NCBI RefSeq assembly: GCF_040436365.1
Contig: NZ_AP026369.1
Span: 2,094,501-2,158,500, forward strand
From: Hydrogenimonas sp. SS33
Lineage (GTDB): Bacteria; Campylobacterota; Campylobacteria; Campylobacterales; Hydrogenimonadaceae
Length of the DNA: 64,000 nucleotides
Direction of reading: 5' to 3'
The stretch's first letter is position 1. The number at the start of each line of letters is the position of its first letter. The notes below the pieces were generated by a model, which saw only the letters and a list, made by a program, of their open reading frames with translations, did not search any database and was not told where the DNA came from. Made by a program: the position numbers and the translations under genes. Below, in pieces: positions 43,797 through 53,080 of the stretch.

Positions 43797-44174
43797 ATGA
43801 AAATCAAAAAATTCGACCAGATCAACGTCCTTCCTTTCATCGACATCATGCTGGTGCTGCTGGTCATCGTCCTCTCCAGCGCCTCCTTCGTCTCCAAGGG
43901 GACCATTCCCGTCAAACTCCCTGAAGCGAGCAGCAAGGCCGCACCGGTGACCAAGTTTCTAAGCATCGTCATCGACAGGAACGGCCATTTCTATTTCGAA
44001 AACGAAAAGATGGGCTTCGAGGCGCTCAAGGCGAAGATCGATACCCTCAACCCGAAAAAGGATGCCCTAGTGATCAAGAGCGACGCCCGCAGCCAGTTTC
44101 AGAATTTCGTGAAGGTGATCGACCTGCTCAAAAGCAGGGGATTCGAAAAGATCAGTATCGAGACGAAGCAATGA
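43797..44174 (+). CDS. exbD: ExbD/TolR-type protein
   Basis: A 125-residue ExbD with one membrane helix at the N-terminus and the essential Asp in NVLPFIDIMLVLLVIVL, followed by a periplasmic domain (IPVKLPEASS, FLSIVIDRNGHFYF, VIKSDARSQF). Partner of the ExbB encoded 70 bp upstream. No purine-rich Shine-Dalgarno is present in the 20 bases before the ATG. The stop overlaps the next ATG by 4 nt. Confidence 0.92.
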   Translation: MKIKKFDQINVLPFIDIMLVLLVIVLSSASFVSKGTIPVKLPEASSKAAPVTKFLSIVIDRNGHFYFENEKMGFEALKAKIDTLNPKKDALVIKSDARSQFQNFVKVIDLLKSRGFEKISIETKQ

Positions 44175-44611
44175 AAAAAACGTGCCTGCTGATATTGGGG
44201 ATTCTCGCGCTGCAGAACTCTATGGCCGGCTGCGGCTGCGGCAAAGGAAAGCTGATGCTTCAGTGTGACTACTATGTCGCCCGCCTGGGGGACAAAAGCC
44301 GGCAACATCTCTGTGAAGAGTATGCGAAGGTCGTGGATATCGACGGCGCTTCGGCGCAGGCGGCCTGGTACTACCTGCTGGCCGGCAAGCCCGGCAAGGC
44401 GCTCGCCGCGGCCAGGAGGGCATACGACCAGGGGCAGACCTACGCCGCCGGGTATATGGCGGAGGCACTGCTGATTCTGGGGCGGGATAGGGAAGCGAAG
44501 CGTTACAGGGATATTTTCGTCAAGAGAGTCAAAAAGCGGGCATATTTCGACAAAGAGATAGAGGTTTTGAAGAAGCTCTACCCCCGCGTCGGTTTCTCGA
44601 CACTGAGGTAG
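44171..44611 (+). CDS. Small exported Cys-containing protein of unknown function
   Basis: A 146-residue protein with a signal peptide ending near residue 19 (LLILGILALQNSMAG) and then CGCGKGK and CDYY. The rest is helical and resembles one or two TPR/Sel1-like helical repeats (AAWYYLLAGKPGKALAAARRAYDQGQTYAAGYMAEALL). It overlaps ExbD by 4 nt and so is translated with it. I do not recognise a family, and it is not a TonB (no Pro-rich region or C-terminal TonB domain). It lies before the convergent rhodanese gene. Confidence 0.68.
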   Translation: MKKTCLLILGILALQNSMAGCGCGKGKLMLQCDYYVARLGDKSRQHLCEEYAKVVDIDGASAQAAWYYLLAGKPGKALAAARRAYDQGQTYAAGYMAEALLILGRDREAKRYRDIFVKRVKKRAYFDKEIEVLKKLYPRVGFSTLR

Positions 44612-45063: not shown

Positions 45064-45123
45064 TATAATAAAATGACTTAAAATTCAAGGTGGCTCTCTC
45101 CTCTTGCACACTCCTTGCACACT
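45064..45123 (+). promoter_or_regulatory. Predicted promoter and direct repeat upstream of the RiPP-like operon
   Basis: A TATAAT box at 45064-45069 is 95 bases before the precursor ATG. Downstream, CTTGCACACT occurs twice at exactly 11-bp spacing (45103-45112 and 45114-45123), about one helical turn, a likely operator or a second promoter's -35 region. Nothing similar was seen elsewhere in the window. Confidence 0.5.
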
Positions 45124-45163: not shown

Positions 45164-45550
45164 ATGAACAAGATGAACAGACGCAAGGCGATGGTGATGA
45201 TTCTCGGCGCGATGGCGGCGGGAACGACGGCGGCGGTGGCCGGCATGGACGGCTGCGGAAGCAAAATGAAAAAGAAGGCCAAATGCGGTGCCAAGATGAA
45301 AGGCGGCGGCCGGTGCGGCGCGAAGATGAAAGATAAAAACTGCACGACGGGCGCGATGGGTATGAAAGGCGAAGGCAAGTGCGGCGCCAAGATGAAAGAT
45401 GCCAAATGCGGCGGAAAGATGAAGTCCGAGATGAAGGGCAAGTGCGGCGCCGGCAAGTGCGGTGGTGAAATGAAAAAGATGAAGAAAAAGAAGAAAAAGG
45501 AGATGAAGGGCAAGTGCGGTGCCGGCAAGTGCGGCGGAAGCATGATGTGA
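45164..45550 (+). CDS. Cys/Lys/Met-rich secreted precursor, bufferin/HvfA-like RiPP
   Basis: A 128-residue peptide: a Sec-type signal (residues 1-~27, MILGAMAAGTTAAVAG), then a tail of almost only Lys, Gly, Met, Ala and Cys. Ten cysteines lie at 31, 41, 51, 60, 73, 82, 94, 99, 118 and 123, mostly in KCGAK, EGKCG, GKCGAGKCGG settings. HvfA-type precursors carry EGKCG repeats whose cysteines are turned into thiooxazole groups by a DUF692 enzyme with a DUF2063 partner; those two genes follow here. Two near-identical EMKGKCGAGKCGG blocks (89-101 and 113-125) flank a Met/Lys stretch. Metal (copper) sequestration is inferred. AAAGGA precedes ATG. Confidence 0.85.
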   Translation: MNKMNRRKAMVMILGAMAAGTTAAVAGMDGCGSKMKKKAKCGAKMKGGGRCGAKMKDKNCTTGAMGMKGEGKCGAKMKDAKCGGKMKSEMKGKCGAGKCGGEMKKMKKKKKKEMKGKCGAGKCGGSMM

Positions 45551-45554
45551 CGCG

Positions 45555-46361
45555 ATGATACCGCAAGGATGCGGGCTCGGCCTGCGGGAACCTTTCTTCA
45601 AAACGATCGGCCGTTACGAAGGCCGGATCGATTTTTTGGAGATCGTGCCCGAAAACATGATGCACATGAACGAAAAGGAGGCGAAGCGGTTCGCTCAGAT
45701 CCGCGAGCGTTTTCCGGTGATAGCCCACGGGCTTTCGCTCTCGCTGGGAGATACGGTGCATCTGGACGTCGCCCACCTGAAACGGCTCAAGAGTTTTCTG
45801 GACCGCTACGGGATCGAAACCTACTCCGAGCATCTGAGTTTCACGTCGCTCAACGGAGTGCAGAGTTACGAACTGCTCCCCCTGCCCATGACCGAGGGGA
45901 TGGTGAAAGCGGTGACGGAGAAGATCGCGAAGATCGAAGAGATTCTGGCGCGTCCTCTCGTCATCGAAAATCCCACCTACTATACGGTCCTGCCGTCGAC
46001 GATGGAGGAGAGTGATTTTATCGGTGAAATTTTGGAGCGCAGCGGTGCGAAGCTGCTTCTGGACATCAACAATGTCTATGTCAACGCCTTCAACCACGGT
46101 TTCGACGCCAGAGCCTTCATCGACGCCCTCGACCTGGAACGCGTCGCCTACTGCCACGTCGCCGGACACCTGGAGTATCGGGAGGATCTCTTCATCGATA
46201 CCCACGGGATGCCGGTCAAAGAGGCGGTATGGGATCTGATGGCCTATGTGATGGCGAAAAAGAGGCTTCCGGTGATGCTCGAGCGCGACAACAACATTCC
46301 GCCGCTGGACGAGCTGATGAAAGAGTTCGACCGGATGAAGGAGATCCGCGATGCAGCCTGA
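45555..46361 (+). CDS. bufB: DUF692 (MNIO) multinuclear-iron modification enzyme
   Basis: A 268-residue TIM-barrel DUF692 protein. These are multinuclear non-heme iron oxygenases that modify cysteines of RiPP precursors. Candidate metal ligands visible in the usual order are His58 (VIAHGLSLS), His93 (SEHLSF), Glu138 (VIENPTYY), Asp170 and Asn172-173 (LLDINNVYVNAFNHG), His201 and His205 (CHVAGH), Asp215/His217 (DTHGM) and Glu243 (MLERD). It starts four bases after the precursor stop and overlaps the DUF2063 gene by 11 nt. The symbol follows the bufferin nomenclature by analogy. Confidence 0.92.
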   Translation: MIPQGCGLGLREPFFKTIGRYEGRIDFLEIVPENMMHMNEKEAKRFAQIRERFPVIAHGLSLSLGDTVHLDVAHLKRLKSFLDRYGIETYSEHLSFTSLNGVQSYELLPLPMTEGMVKAVTEKIAKIEEILARPLVIENPTYYTVLPSTMEESDFIGEILERSGAKLLLDINNVYVNAFNHGFDARAFIDALDLERVAYCHVAGHLEYREDLFIDTHGMPVKEAVWDLMAYVMAKKRLPVMLERDNNIPPLDELMKEFDRMKEIRDAA

Positions 46362-47052
46362 AAGAGCGATCCAGGCGGACTTTTTCGATGCCGTCCGCGG
46401 CGCGGGCGGGAACGCGGACCGGTTCGGCAATGCGGAGATCTACCGGAAGCTCATATTCTACCGCTTCGAGGAGACGCTTTCCGCGGCCTATCCGCTCTTT
46501 AAAAAAGAGGTGGGGAAGCGGAGGTGGAAGAGGTGGGTGAAGGGCTATATCGCGCAAAATCCCGAGACGCCGTTCATGTGGCGGATGCCCGAAGGTTTCG
46601 GGAAATATGTCCGCAAAGAGATGAAGAAAAAGGGGATGAAACGACGGCGCTACCGTCGCGATCTGCTCTGGTTCGAATGGAACGAAGTGGCGGCGATGAT
46701 GGCGCCTTCGCCGATCAAAAGCGCCAAGCGGGTGGACTTTTCCAGGGTCTACCGGCGCGGGGAGTCGGTGCGTATGCGGCGCCTGCGTCACCCCGCCATG
46801 CTTGGTAAAAGAGAACCGAAAGCCGTCTACCCGACCCTTGTGCATCAGACCGGGGACGGGGGCGTGGCGTGGCGCATCCTGACCCCGTTCTTGTATGAAC
46901 TGATTCGCGCCTGTGACGGAAAGCGGCCGCTCGGAAAGATCGTTTGCTCCCTCTGCCGCAGCGGGGATATCGATGAGAAAAGCGCGAGGAAGGTTCTTCA
47001 GAAGGGCTTGCGCGCTTTTTTGAAACAGGGTGTGCTGACACCCGTCCACTGA
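46351..47052 (+). CDS. bufC: DUF2063 partner protein (RiPP recognition-type)
   Basis: A 233-residue protein overlapping the DUF692 gene. The N-terminal ~110 residues fit DUF2063 (YRKLIFYRFEETLSAAYPLFKK, then a helical WKRWVKGYIAQNPE block). DUF2063 proteins bind the precursor and present it to the DUF692 enzyme. The C-terminal part (from ~VYPTLVHQTGDGG) resembles a small winged-helix or PqqD-like recognition module (LIRACDGKRPLGKIVCSL). The middle is very basic (MKKKGMKRRRYRR), as suits an enzyme acting on a peptide, although the precursor is also basic. Confidence 0.83.
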   Translation: MQPERAIQADFFDAVRGAGGNADRFGNAEIYRKLIFYRFEETLSAAYPLFKKEVGKRRWKRWVKGYIAQNPETPFMWRMPEGFGKYVRKEMKKKGMKRRRYRRDLLWFEWNEVAAMMAPSPIKSAKRVDFSRVYRRGESVRMRRLRHPAMLGKREPKAVYPTLVHQTGDGGVAWRILTPFLYELIRACDGKRPLGKIVCSLCRSGDIDEKSARKVLQKGLRAFLKQGVLTPVH

Positions 47053-47090
47053 CCGGCGCGGAACAGGCCCGGTCCGCAAAGGAGGCTATC

Positions 47091-47531
47091 ATGGCATTCA
47101 AACAGCTCTATACGGAGTTTTCCCGTCTCGCGGGCTATTTCAAAAGCATTTCGCTGCTGCTGATGCGACTGGTTCTGGCCTACGGTTTCTACGAACCGGC
47201 GATGATGAAGTGGAGCGACATCTCCGCCGTGGCCGAATGGTTCGGATCGATCGGGATACCCTTTCCCGCACTCAACGCCTACATGGCGGCGACGACCGAG
47301 CTAACGGGGGTGGTGCTTCTTGCGCTGGGCCTTCTGACACGGCTCATTTCGATACCGCTCATCGTCGTGATGGTCGTGGCGATCGTCACGGTCCATCTTT
47401 CCAACGGATTTTCCGCGGGGAACAACGGTTTCGAGATTCCGCTCTACTATATGGTGATGCTTTTCGCACTCTTCGCGCACGGCCCGGGGCGTTTCAGCCT
47501 CGACAGGTTGATATTCAAAGAGGAGGCGTAG
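47091..47531 (+). CDS. bufD: DoxX family membrane protein
   Basis: A 146-residue DoxX-family protein with four membrane helices: LLLMRLVLAYGFYEPAMMKW, WFGSIGIPFPALNAYMAATTE, LTGVVLLALGLLTRLISIPL, and a C-terminal segment. DoxX proteins are commonly encoded with bufferin clusters (often named bufD), though their job there is unclear. It lies 38 bp after bufC and 7 bp before the next gene. The buf symbol is by analogy only. Confidence 0.85.
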   Translation: MAFKQLYTEFSRLAGYFKSISLLLMRLVLAYGFYEPAMMKWSDISAVAEWFGSIGIPFPALNAYMAATTELTGVVLLALGLLTRLISIPLIVVMVVAIVTVHLSNGFSAGNNGFEIPLYYMVMLFALFAHGPGRFSLDRLIFKEEA

Positions 47532-47538
47532 CCACGCC

Positions 47539-49296
47539 ATGGAGGAGCTCCTCGAATATATGAAGGGCCCCCACGGGGTGGATCCGCTGCCTCTCTTTTT
47601 CAAGATACTCTTCTTCGTCGCGGCGCTGTCGGCCGCGGCACTCTTCGTGTATGACCGGTATGTGCAGCGGCACAACCAGCTTCTCATCAACTACCCTCTC
47701 ATCGGACGCCTGCGATACTTCTTCTACCTGATACGCGATCCGATGCGTCAATATTTCGGTGACGAGAAATTCTACGAATCGTTCGACAAGGTGAAATGGG
47801 TCTACGATGCGGCCGAAGGAAAGAAGCTCTTTACGTCGTTTTCTCCCGGAGAATCGGTCGACACGGGAACGATGGGGCTGAAAAACGCGTTGAAGGTTCT
47901 CAACAAGGAGGAGGTCTCCGACCGGTTTTCCGTCCTGTTCGGGAAAGATCTGCCCCATCCTTTCCGAAGCCGTTCCATCGTGATGCGCAGCGCCATGAGC
48001 GACGGCGCCGTCTCGCCCGAAGCGACGCAGGCGTTCAGCAAGGGGGCCTACCTGGGGAAATTTCCCATCAACACGGGAGAGGGGAGCCTGACCACCAATT
48101 TCTTCTACACCCACCGCTGCGATCCGAGGGAGCATCGGTGGTTCGAGTATCACGAAGGAACGTGGTTCGCCAAGGGACTCTACCATCTCGTCGGTTTTCT
48201 CTTCAACAAGCGTATGGCGGTGAATCTCTATCGGGGATTGATCCTGCCGGAAAAGGAGGCGGAGACCTATCTTTTCGACCGTGCGCACATGCTCTGTTTC
48301 CGCGTCGACTGGCGGCGTCCCGTCGAGGATTTCCCCGAAGAGGTGCCCGAAGATTTGCCCGACATCGTCTTTCAGATGGGCAGCGGCCTCTATGGCGTGC
48401 GCGACGCCGGAGGGGCGTTTGATGAAGAGCGCTACCGCAAAGTGATGCGGTTTTGCCGGATGAGTGAAATCAAACTGGCGCAGGGGGCCAAGCAGACGGG
48501 CGGCAAGCTTCTGGCGTGCAAGGTGACCGAGGCGATCGCCTGGTATCGGGGCGTGGAGCCTTACAAGGATCTCTTCAGCCCCGACAGATTCCCCTATTTC
48601 GATTCTATCGGGGGACTCTTCGATTTCATCGGACGTCTCAAAAGGGTTTCCGGCAAACCGGTGGGCGTGAAGATCGTCATCTCTTCACGGGACGATATCA
48701 TCCCCATCGCCGAAGCGATTCGGCAGCGTATCGATGCCCGCTCCCCGGACTACCCCGATTTTCTGACGATCGACGGGGGCGAGGGCGGCAGCGGTACGGC
48801 TCCTCTGGAGATGATGATGCGGGTGGGGCTCAATATCCGGGATGCGCTCTATCTGGCCGACACGGCACTGCGGGAGAAGGGGGTGAGAGGCGCGGTTCGG
48901 CTGATCGCCAGCGAAAAGGTGCTGACCCCCGACGATGTGGTGATCCTGCGGGCTCTGGGCGCCGATATGATCGCCATCGCGAGAGGGTTCATGATGAGTG
49001 CGGGATGTATTCGGGCCAGAGAGTGCAGCGGTGCCGGGGGCCGGCGCTGTCCCGTCGGCCTCGCGACGCAAGATAGAGCCAGACGGGCCTCCTTTCTCGT
49101 GGAACAGAAAGCCCGTCGCGTGGCCCGTTACCACGAGAGCCTGCTGGAAGGGTGCCGCGGGCTGCTGGCGGTCATGGGGAAGAGGTCGATCGACGAAGTG
49201 GGGCGTGACGACCTCTTTTTCAAAGAGGCCGGGGGGCGTGTCTATGAAAATCTCGACGACTATTTCGACGACAATTTTATCGGCACGCGTCGATGA
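47539..49296 (+). CDS. Membrane-anchored FMN-binding glutamate-synthase-like protein
   Basis: A 585-residue protein starting with one membrane helix (LFFKILFFVAALSAAALFVY) after a short N-terminus and then a GltS-type FMN TIM barrel: IDGGEGGSGTAPLEMMM, and the Fe-S-like CIRARECSGAGGRRCPVG (cysteines spaced 5 and 6). Glutamine amidotransferase and GOGAT C-terminal domains are absent. Stand-alone proteins of this group have no known function. Only 7 bp separate it from doxX, so it appears to belong to the RiPP-like operon and could act as a redox tailoring enzyme or electron supplier. The 3' end overlaps the convergent OmpA lipoprotein gene by 20 nt. Confidence 0.82.
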   Translation: MEELLEYMKGPHGVDPLPLFFKILFFVAALSAAALFVYDRYVQRHNQLLINYPLIGRLRYFFYLIRDPMRQYFGDEKFYESFDKVKWVYDAAEGKKLFTSFSPGESVDTGTMGLKNALKVLNKEEVSDRFSVLFGKDLPHPFRSRSIVMRSAMSDGAVSPEATQAFSKGAYLGKFPINTGEGSLTTNFFYTHRCDPREHRWFEYHEGTWFAKGLYHLVGFLFNKRMAVNLYRGLILPEKEAETYLFDRAHMLCFRVDWRRPVEDFPEEVPEDLPDIVFQMGSGLYGVRDAGGAFDEERYRKVMRFCRMSEIKLAQGAKQTGGKLLACKVTEAIAWYRGVEPYKDLFSPDRFPYFDSIGGLFDFIGRLKRVSGKPVGVKIVISSRDDIIPIAEAIRQRIDARSPDYPDFLTIDGGEGGSGTAPLEMMMRVGLNIRDALYLADTALREKGVRGAVRLIASEKVLTPDDVVILRALGADMIAIARGFMMSAGCIRARECSGAGGRRCPVGLATQDRARRASFLVEQKARRVARYHESLLEGCRGLLAVMGKRSIDEVGRDDLFFKEAGGRVYENLDDYFDDNFIGTRR

Positions 49297-50125: not shown

Positions 50126-53080
50126 GTGCAGATCGAGGCGATCAACGAGCTTCTTAACGACAAAAAGCGGCTTTTGACCGACATCTATTTCGAACTTCAG
50201 AAGATCTTCGAGGAGAAGTACGGCCCCGACACGGTCGTGGTGATGGAGGTGGGGACCTTCTTCGAAGTCTACGAAGTGAACAACGACGAGATGAAGATCG
50301 GCAAGGCCAAGGAGATCGCCGAGCTGCTCAATATCCAGCTGACCCGCAAGAACAAGACGATTCTGGAAAACTCCGTCGCCAACCCGCTGATGGCGGGATG
50401 GCCCGCCGTCTCGCTGGACCGCTACCTCTCGCGGCTGGTACAGAGCAAGAAATATACGGTCGTGCTTGTACGCCAGAAGGGGGTTCCGCCCAAGGTCAAG
50501 CGCTACATCGGCAACATCCTCTCCCCCGGAACCAATTTCGACTACCTGGTGGAGCCGACCGAAAACTACATCGTCAGCCTCATCGTCGACATCAACAACG
50601 GCATCTACTCCTGCGGTTACAGCGCCATCGACGTCAGTACCGGGAAAACCTGGCTCAACGAGATTCACGGCACGAGAGAGGACAAGACCTACGCCCTGGA
50701 CGAAGTCTTCAACATGCTCCAGAGCTACACCACCTCCGAACTGCTGCTGACCCTCGACGACCCTTCCATCGACGCGGAGTGGATCGTCCGCTACCTCGAA
50801 ATCGAGGGGCACATCAGCTACACGGTAGGTCAGACCCGCCACAAAATCGCCTACCAGAACGAGCTCTTCGCCAACGTCTACAACATCCGCTCCTTTTTAA
50901 GCCCCATCGAGTACCTGGACCTGGAGCGCTACCCCTACGCCTCCGAGTCGCTCTCCCTGCTCATCGACTTCATCATCGAACACGACGCGGCGCTCATCGA
51001 GAAGATGAACCGGCCTCTTTTTCTGGGCGGGCGGCGTTTCGTCTATCTGGGCAACAATGCGTTGGAGCAGCTCAATATCATCAGCCGCGATCCGGACGAG
51101 ATGACGCTGCTCAAACTCATCGACCTCACCTCCACCGCCATCGGCAAGCGCCTCTTCAAGGAGCGGCTGCTCAACCCCATCTGTGACGCCAAGGAGCTTC
51201 GAAGCCGCTACGACCTGGCCGAAAAGGTAATGGAGCACACCCAGAATTTCGCCAACGGGCTGAAAGAGGTCTACGACCTGGAACGGATCCTTCGGCGGAT
51301 CAATCTGGGCAAACTCCACCCCTTTGAAGTGGTCTACCTGCACGACTCCCTCAAAGCGCTGGAGCGGCTGGTCTGGGAGGCCAAAGGGGTGGGCGTCGAC
51401 GTGGAGGAGGAGCTTCGCGTCCGCATCGAGGCCTTCGTCAGGGAGATCGAAAAGACCTTTGTGCTGGAAGAGTGCGCCAAATACCGCCGGGACCAGATCG
51501 AGAGCAACATTTTCCAGCCGGGTATCAATCTCTTTGTGGACCAGATCGTCGAGGAGAACGAGAAGGAGCTGGCCAAACTGGAGGCGGTGCGGCTGCACAT
51601 CGAAAACTTCTTCGAACGCAGCGACAGCGAGAGCGAATATGTGGGCATCGGCTGGCTGGAGAGCGAGGGCTATTTCCTGACCGTCACCCGCACCCGCTTC
51701 GGCATGATCGAAAAGGAGCTGATGGAGAGTTTCCTGTTGCTTGACGGAGAGCACCATTTCCTCAAAGACTTCACCTACAAGAAGCTCAAAAACAGCGTCA
51801 AGATCACGGCGCCGCTGATCGAGTCGATCTCCCGTTCCATCATGGCCAACCAGTCCCGCATTGTCGCGCTCATCAAACAGAGCTACGTAGAATCCCTGGA
51901 GCTGCTGGAGAAGCGCTACGCCCAGCTTCTGGAACAGGTCATCGCCTTCGTGGGGCGCTTCGATGTGGCGATCGCCACGGCGCGGGCCGCGGAGCGCTAC
52001 AACTATGTCCGGCCCGAGATTCTGGAGAGGAAGGAGGGGGAGGAGGCCCAGACGCTGGAGTTCGTGGGCCTGCGCCATCCGCTTATCGAGTCGCGGGAAG
52101 AGAACGGCATCTACATTCCCAACGACCTTCTGATGGGCGACATCCCAAAGCCCCTGGAACACGACCATGTGACGCTGCAGGCCGGCGAGGGCAAGCCGGT
52201 GCGGGGGGTATTGCTCTACGGCATCAACTCCAGCGGCAAAAGCTCCCTGATGAAGAGCGTGGGGATGGCGGTCATCATGGCGCAGGCGGGCTTTTTCGTC
52301 CCCGCCGCGTCGATGCGCTTCCACCTCTTCGACAAGCTTTTCACCCGCATCGTCAGTAAGGACAACCTCTACAAGGGGCTCAGTACCTTCGCCATCGAGA
52401 TGATGGAGCTCAAGAACATCTTCAACCGGGCCGGGCGCGCGTCGCTGGTGCTGGGCGATGAGATCAGCCACGGCACGGAGACCGAGTCGGCGCTGGCCAT
52501 CGTCGCCAGCGCCGTCAAACGGCTCCACGAACTGGGGACCCTCTTCATCGTGGCGACCCACCTGCACAAACTGACGATGCTCAAGACTGTCACCGACCTT
52601 CCGGGCGTGGTCTTTTTGCATTTGGCGGTGGCGTATGACGAAAAGAGTGACGCCCTCGTTTACAACCGGAAGCTCAAACCGGGTTCGGGCAGCACCCTTT
52701 ACGGGCTGGAGTTTGCCAGGTCGCTCCATATGGACAAAGCCTTCATTGAAACCGCCTATGCGGTGCGGGAATCCCTGGGGGACGCCGCCAATGCGCTGCG
52801 TCAGCTGAAACGGCGCAAAAAGAGCCGTTACAACAAGGAACTCTACCTCACGGCCTGCGCCCTGTGCGGCGCGCCGGTGGAGGAGGTGCACCACATCGTG
52901 CCCCAGGCGGCTGCGGACGAGAAGGGGCGGGTCGGCCATTTCCACGCCAACCACCGCTACAACCTCATTCCCCTGTGCAAAAAGCACCACCGGATGGTGC
53001 ATGAAGGGAAAGTGATCATCCAGGGGTTCGTCATGACCGACGAGGGGCTGCAACTTCGGTATAGCGAGATTGATCAATAG
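50126..53080 (+). CDS. mutS7: MutS7-type mismatch protein with C-terminal HNH nuclease
   Basis: A 984-residue MutS homologue. Domain I is present with a mismatch-probing VGTFFEVYE (the GxFxE motif) near residue 40, followed by connector, lever and clamp regions and an ATPase (Walker A GINSSGKS at 699-706, [11 protein letters not shown]). It ends in an HNH endonuclease: CALC at 911, HHIVPQ at 922, LIPLCKKHH. This MutS plus HNH plan is known in MutS7 of Epsilonproteobacteria, octocoral mitochondria and giant viruses. A fused nuclease would let it nick DNA without MutL/MutH. GTG start at 50126 has AAGGA ten bases upstream. Confidence 0.93.

Follow-up and report, generated by a model that had tools for sequence, protein, structure and literature searches.

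The subject of this work is a five-gene operon on the forward strand of a 64,000-nucleotide stretch, hereafter the window, of the hydrothermal-vent bacterium Hydrogenimonas sp. SS33 (contig NZ_AP026369.1). Five open reading frames (ORFs), A (45164..45550), B (45555..46361), C (46351..47052), X (47091..47531), and G (47539..49296), follow one another with a 4-bp gap between A and B, an 11-nt overlap between B and C, and gaps of 38 bp and 7 bp ahead of X and G. Their positions, order, and spacings are exactly those of a first-pass annotation made earlier from the letters of the window, and the families it assigned to B, C, X, and G are borne out by Pfam, each above its gathering score. Purifying selection acts on each of the five (dN/dS 0.06-0.27), with the lowest value for A against its nearest relative (0.06). 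The five-gene operon is real and far beyond chance.

A encodes a putatively secreted precursor peptide of 128 aa with 10 Cys, 33 Lys, and 19 Met residues and two C-terminal KCGAGKCG doublets. Residues 1-26 (MNKMNRRKAMVMILGAMAAGTTAAVA, 45164..45241) read as a putative signal peptide or leader, and the MNRRKAM-like leader is common to Hydrogenimonas precursors. The first-pass annotation had placed ten cysteines in KCG settings; the count stands, but KCG accounts for seven, the others being RCG, GCG, and NCT (one each). Against the NCBIfam model NF050137 (HvfA-type KCG domain), A scores 18.8 bits alone, with a cut-off of 19.5, and 21.7 bits when neighboring matches in frame are counted. As a KCG-repeat precursor, A is borderline by profile and clear by position and conservation. 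It is a real protein, since its dN/dS is so low and such precursors lie directly upstream of the gene for the multinuclear iron oxygenase (MNIO; DUF692) in 16 of 18 loci. A bufferin of the Buf1 type is ruled out by the lack of a DUF2282 match to A in Pfam.

B (268 aa) is an HvfB/BufB-like MNIO enzyme. It matches Pfam MbnB_TglH_ChrH (PF05114) at 311.6 bits (gathering 25), retains the family motifs DINN, DTHG, and LERD, and has 3BWW as its closest solved structure (E 2.6e-55); against the BufB profile it reaches 271.7, with a cut-off of 310. C (233 aa) is an HvfC-like partner of the DUF2063/PME1 type, in the manner of a RiPP recognition element (RRE; RiPP, ribosomally synthesized and post-translationally modified peptide), and matches PF09836 at 46.7 bits (gathering 27.2). 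X (146 aa) is a DoxX-family membrane protein (72.2 bits in Pfam) that belongs to the HvfX family by NF050144 (137.6 bits, cut-off 80); its residues H102, E70, and E115, among others, are invariant in our alignment A3. By these Pfam and NCBIfam matches A-B-C-X is an HvfABCX-type MNIO RiPP cluster, composed of a KCG-repeat precursor, an MNIO, a DUF2063/PME1 partner, and an HvfX-type DoxX, which bears out the HvfA/EGKCG-type MNIO/PME1 cluster proposed at first pass. Characterized MNIO-PME1 pairs install 5-thiooxazoles on cysteines, and their products bind Cu (PMC13097082, PMC13419390). By analogy, B and C would oxidize the cysteines of A, most likely to 5-thiooxazoles.

G (585 aa) is a GltS-like flavoprotein that matches Pfam Glu_synthase (PF01645) at 195 bits. 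Its AF2 model (pLDDT 78.8) consists of an N-terminal helix followed by a GltS-type domain for flavin mononucleotide (FMN). The best PDB matches of the model are glutamate synthases (E 2.5e-16), and sequence matches to solved GltS structures begin at query residue 302. The membrane helix spans residues 16-46 (47584..47676; DSSP of the AF2 model, with confidence below 50 from residue 42), and YDRYVQR comes after it, which by the positive-inside rule suggests a catalytic domain facing the cytoplasm. C490, C496, and C504 (C-x5-C-x7-C; 49006..49050) are invariant in both alignments and align with the GltS cluster ligands C-x5-C-x4-C; they are putative iron-sulfur ligands, with the cluster type assumed from GltS. 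G is under purifying selection (dN/dS 0.155 against the relative G003; G-numbers denote genomes and L-numbers loci). A true glutamate synthase is ruled out, G having 585 aa against about 1,480-1,520 and no glutaminase domain. The alignments also show an invariant Lys at the GltS Gln position, and the substrate of G likely differs from that of GltS because of this Lys and the missing glutaminase domain. Close homologues of G were sought among plasmids and none was found, the matches listed reaching at most about 42% identity over half to three quarters of the length.

A predicted copper regulon

The direct repeat TTGCACA-N4-TTGCACA was found by aligning the regions upstream of seven Hydrogenimonas precursors, and it is recognizable in all seven clusters. 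In the window it reads TTGCACA-CTCC-TTGCACA (45104..45121, forward strand, 11-bp period) and begins 60 nt ahead of the start codon of A. The SS33 genome holds two exact copies and two copies with one mismatch, where 0.01 and 0.46 are expected. Of the other three sites, one separates a two-component system (response regulator and histidine kinase) from a CopB-type Cu P-ATPase, one separates a multicopper oxidase from a YtkA-CusCBA set, and one precedes a set of CMD, cytochrome c, and DsbD genes. Across 18 congeners we counted 29 box sites, and the reversed control pattern gave one; the same genes recur downstream of the boxes. The box of G004 and G016 stands in a divergent promoter common to A-B-C and the Cu P-ATPase, and it also precedes the lone X of these genomes, exactly in G016 and with two mismatches in G004. 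At L243:3477-6444, genes for CMD, a small cytochrome-c-like protein, and DsbD follow an exact box, and the box stays with these genes in four Hydrogenimonas genomes.

Because the other sites of the SS33 genome with at most one mismatch precede copper or redox genes, the operon very probably belongs to a copper regulon. The boxes are strong sequence evidence, short of proof, for a single such regulon that takes in precursor, MNIO, and DoxX alike. The repeat is a putative site for an OmpR-type copper response regulator. In the CopRS, CusRS, and CrdRS regulons, an OmpR-type response regulator and a histidine kinase are found beside a Cu-ATPase and Cus efflux genes, with a direct-repeat box. The system described here appears to resemble them in the type of regulator and kinase, the Cu-ATPase, the Cus efflux genes, and the direct repeat; the box and its RiPP-operon target are predicted here from sequence. 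With the cluster placed in a predicted copper regulon, its control by copper becomes directly testable.

The KCG motif is also tied to copper independently of the operon, because KCG tails are fused to the copper chaperone PCuAC (L219) and to cytochrome c (L208) near Cu-ATPase or multicopper oxidase genes. L219:3978-4574 (reverse strand) encodes a PCuAC protein (PF04314, 130 bits) with a C-terminal KCG-repeat tail; its neighboring ORFs look Sco-like, and the one that was checked has no Pfam match. Cytochrome-c-like proteins with KCG tails are encoded at L208:1809-2348, L224:3990-4616, and L225:4028-4609, adjoining a Cu P-ATPase in L208 and a multicopper oxidase in L225.

Gene content among Hydrogenimonas genomes

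The first-pass annotation had called the operon a distinct family version, citing a precursor rich in Met and Lys, variable Cys spacing, and the gain of a flavoprotein. The first two features proved normal for the order, and we dropped Met/Lys richness as the mark of a separate family. Campylobacterales precursors contain about 20% Lys and 6-9% Met, with spacing that varies around KCG-x-GKCG doublets, with or without an MNIO. Precursors linked to an MNIO, linked to X-G, or neither agree in their main Cys context, and in each group the commonest Cys spacing is 5 residues.

Whether all five genes stay together had been put forward as a check. Gene content does not support it: the core is A-B-C, and among the seven MNIO-bearing Hydrogenimonas genomes X is unlinked in two and G is present in three. 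X itself occurs in all seven and in one of the 11 other Hydrogenimonas genomes. Between the rhodanese gene and the OmpA-family gene, G016 and G004 have X alone; G012 and G009 have ABCX at this locus, and ABCXG occupies it in the window, in G003, and in G015, a metagenome-assembled genome (MAG) of Hydrogenimonas sp. from the same genus. The A-B-C of G016 and G004 adjoins the Cu P-ATPase instead of this locus. In G010, which has no MNIO, a box precedes X and a short remnant of G follows. Since locus contents differ in this way, A-B-C and X(-G) move as separate units that are joined here, and the window operon looks like a merger of two modules, an MNIO module ABC(X) and a DoxX-GltS module. The X tree is suggestive, but not decisive, on the Hydrogenimonas X coming from an X-G module; G may have been either gained or lost. 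G is not essential for maturation in Hydrogenimonas, because four of the seven MNIO-bearing genomes do without it. We therefore dropped the idea that the MNIO pathway needs G as its fifth component, since it is missing from four of seven Hydrogenimonas clusters and from most other families.

Two neighbors of the operon are recorded in passing. Upstream, window 44171-44611 encodes a small secreted protein whose leader is followed by a CGCGKG stretch; the gene comes behind ExbB/ExbD-like genes and stays beside the rhodanese gene in G004 and G016. Downstream, window 50126-53080 encodes a MutS-like protein of 984 aa whose sequence shows an apparent HNH motif at the C-terminus; it is found at the same place in congeners.

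The DoxX-GltS pair and KCG peptides without MNIO

We examined G across Campylobacterota in a tree of 55 proteins and in 115 distinct loci. The tree is split with full support into a clade never linked to DoxX and a clade (support 100/99) nearly always linked to it, and the window G groups with those of G003 and G015 inside the latter. X lies directly upstream of G in 78 of the 115 loci, almost always with an overlap or a gap of a few bases. G therefore represents a Campylobacterota subfamily translationally coupled to an HvfX-type DoxX. The coupling is kept across at least five families. The genome scan covered the best 80 loci of 340 confirmed relatives, so that confinement of X-G to Campylobacterota is not shown by it. 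L112, on a contig labelled Candidatus Gracilibacteria, carries an X-G very close to that of the Helicobacteraceae MAG L111 and is probably misbinned.

The SS33 genome also carries a second GltS-like paralogue (G000:C1:1338660-1340315, L057) from the clade never linked to DoxX, adjoining a large ORF that resembles an RND transporter. G may be decaying in some lineages: G223:C48:27051-28727, G323:C1:2145762-2147456, and G198:C123:1741-3426 are G matches with in-frame stops, and the G010 remnant (L280:4632-4820) is 62 aa long.

These data bear on whether G is a glutamate synthase-like metabolic bystander that happens to sit behind X. Its PF01645 domain and GltS fold, together with the separate paralogue clade without X, would fit such a role. 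Its size and missing glutaminase domain, the full-length GltS-like frame (1,475 aa) that the genome has of its own, and the coupling to X across families make this explanation highly improbable. We favor a membrane redox pair, X-G, acting on KCG peptides or their thiols.

A KCG precursor lies within 4 kb of 36 of the 78 X-linked G genes and of none of the 37 unlinked ones (Fisher p values for this comparison of loci ignore shared ancestry). An MNIO, by contrast, is near only three of the 78, and in the window besides. Clear precursor-DoxX-GltS clusters without an MNIO were found in, among others, G056 and G148 (two precursors each), G134, G088, G233, G116, G224, and G198; the X and A of these clusters exceed the NCBIfam cut-offs as HvfX and as HvfA KCG domain. 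X-G thus keeps company with KCG precursors independently of the MNIO, and since it mostly occurs without one, its basic job cannot be serving the MNIO. Genes for a PF12706 metallo-beta-lactamase and for gluconate-dehydrogenase-subunit-3/GMC oxidoreductase recur near X-G and hardly or never near unlinked G. In L190, L191, L195, L197, and L199, from genomes without an MNIO, a KCG precursor is followed by gluconate-dehydrogenase-subunit-3 and GMC oxidoreductase genes, with DoxX also present in L197 and L199; the five loci possibly represent a third flavoprotein context.

MNIO and G seldom meet. Of 399 genomes sampled from the order, 37 have an HvfB-like MNIO and 107 have a member of the G family, and the two are adjacent only in the window genome and its congeners G003 and G015. 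We fetched 18 distinct Campylobacterales MNIO loci: all 18 have C behind the MNIO, 16 have a KCG precursor directly upstream, 10 have X nearby, and three have G nearby. The precursor is thus conserved beside DUF692, and the loss of this adjacency, which the first-pass annotation had named as counter-evidence, is not what we found. The claim that the MNIO cluster had gained a flavoprotein gave way to G as part of a separate and older DoxX-GltS module, mostly without an MNIO. One of the three MNIO loci with G, L138 (a Sulfurimonas MAG), has A-X-G and A-B-C clusters side by side on opposite strands. At L019 (G023) a divergent MNIO and DUF2063 pair has no KCG precursor. A YceI-like gene stands ahead of the KCG precursor with an MNIO in L063 and without one in L198, L200-L203, and L217, as if B and C had come or gone at a fixed site.

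This distribution makes it improbable that X-G serves the MNIO as an electron donor or maintains the cysteines of the precursor in the reduced state. HvfBC does need a reductant for its iron cofactor and for the HvfA thiols (PMC13419390), and G is a flavoprotein with conserved Cys ligands. Yet an MNIO is near so few X-linked G genes, and G is missing from four of seven MNIO-bearing Hydrogenimonas genomes and from the other MNIO clusters of the order examined, except L138.

KCG genomes without an MNIO are the majority in Campylobacterales. PF05114 was above its cut-off in none of 18 genomes with MNIO-less or similar clusters and was absent from 55 of 56 further KCG-positive genomes. In total, 73 of the 74 KCG-positive genomes without an HvfB-like MNIO hold no PF05114. 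KCG presence was called here by a short profile at E up to 0.1, and 74 is an upper bound because weak matches (e.g., L222 and L223) held no precursor on inspection; at least about 44 MNIO-less genomes, counted by eye, exceed the curated KCG cut-off. A survey found 67 of 2,583 precursor-bearing genomes without an MNIO and offered no explanation (PMC12452194). The published rule that a genome with KCG/EGKCG precursors nearly always has an MNIO as well breaks down across a whole order of vent and sediment bacteria.

KCG peptides could bind copper unmodified, in the manner of metallothioneins; the MNIO would then only improve them, and X-G would have an unrelated role in membrane redox balance. 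The many KCG genomes without PF05114 favor this idea, as do the KCG tails on PCuAC and cytochrome c beside copper genes. Where they occur, though, the MNIO and its partner show purifying selection and close linkage to A, and we regard the idea as doubtful.

Somewhat less probable still is that X-G provides an alternative, MNIO-independent maturation or activation, in which the flavoenzyme modifies or redox-cycles KCG cysteines and, in the window, works parallel to or after the MNIO. The A-X-G clusters in genomes without PF05114, the restriction of nearby KCG precursors to X-linked G, the overlap or near-overlap of X and G at almost all loci, and the KCGxGKCG motif common to both precursor classes are all consistent with it. 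But no KCG precursor lies within 4 kb of 42 of the 78 X-G pairs (the substrate may be another or be encoded elsewhere), many MNIO-less KCG precursors have no X-G neighbor, and the chemistry is without precedent in the GltS fold.

Proposed role and known systems

In our view the operon is likely a RiPP metallophore cluster induced by copper stress. It would belong to the HvfABC(X)/MNIO-PME1 ("captophorin") type and, in one Hydrogenimonas lineage, have become joined to a membrane redox module of DoxX and the GltS-like protein. In the model that we propose, copper would be sensed by a CopRS/CrdRS-like two-component system acting at the TTGCACA direct repeat. A would be synthesized with its signal peptide and presented by the RRE-type partner C to the MNIO B, which would oxidize cysteines in its (K/R/G)CG motifs, most likely to 5-thiooxazoles. 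The exported peptide would then bind surplus Cu(I) in the periplasm. In the inner membrane, X and G, with the FMN/iron-sulfur domain probably on the cytoplasmic face, would form an oxidoreductase linked to quinones or thiols; it would act on KCG peptides or on their cysteines, and could do this where no MNIO is present. A tentative extension, which we hold with reserve, is that Campylobacterota have a second, MNIO-independent KCG copper-peptide pathway made up of a precursor, an HvfX-type DoxX, and a membrane GltS-like flavoprotein, with the Hydrogenimonas operon a natural hybrid of both routes under one copper promoter.

Several observations weigh against the reading of the operon as such a metallophore cluster. 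A lacks a regular 17-residue repeat and has a single EGKCG, its Cys spacings being 10, 10, 9, 13, 9, 12, 5, 19, and 5. B falls below the NCBIfam equivalog cut-off for HvfB (312.4 vs 360), as does C for HvfC (NF050145, 53.4 bits vs 142); by these scores both are relatives of HvfB and HvfC, not equivalogs. Some box sites precede genes without an evident copper link. G is absent from four of the seven MNIO-bearing Hydrogenimonas genomes, and in a constrained X tree the MNIO-linked X as one clade was not rejected (approximately unbiased test, p 0.165).

The core of the cluster is of a known kind. As far as the literature searched goes, three things are new: a DoxX-GltS module that accompanies KCG precursors in genomes lacking an MNIO, its fusion with the MNIO module, and the copper box; a search for DoxX with glutamate synthase or MNIO in Campylobacterota returned nothing relevant. 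HvfX is an uncharacterized member of MNIO copper-RiPP clusters, and its stable flavoprotein pairing and MNIO-less precursor context offer a handle on its role.

Among flavoproteins, the stand-alone "FMN-binding glutamate synthase family protein" (PF01645) shares the domain and fold of G, which differs in its coupling to an HvfX-type DoxX and in its own clade. Glutamate synthase proper combines glutaminase, FMN, and beta-helix parts in about 1,500 aa, an architecture that the 585-aa G does not have.

Among RiPP systems, the captophorins (MNIO-PME1; fontiphorin and gonophorin; PMC13097082) share the MNIO, the PME1 partner, the Cys/Lys-rich precursor, and the copper tie. They have been described mainly from Pseudomonadota, and the searched part of that text names no flavoprotein. 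Buf_EGKCG/oxazolin bufferin-like clusters (PMC12452194) share the core genes (precursor, MNIO, DUF2063, and DoxX), variously combined. The extra genes of that survey are oxidored_molybd and ferric-reductase rather than a GltS-like protein, and Campylobacterales differ in that MNIO-less KCG genomes prevail. The same gene set is found in the Hvf system (HvfA/B/C/X, oxazolin) of nontypeable Haemophilus influenzae, which has a KCG precursor with a signal peptide, an MNIO, a DUF2063/RRE partner, and the HvfX DoxX. Here, by comparison, B and C remain below the HvfB/HvfC equivalog cut-offs, the precursor is Met/Lys-rich with one EGKCG, and the operon has the additional flavoprotein G and a DNA box that links it to copper-resistance genes.

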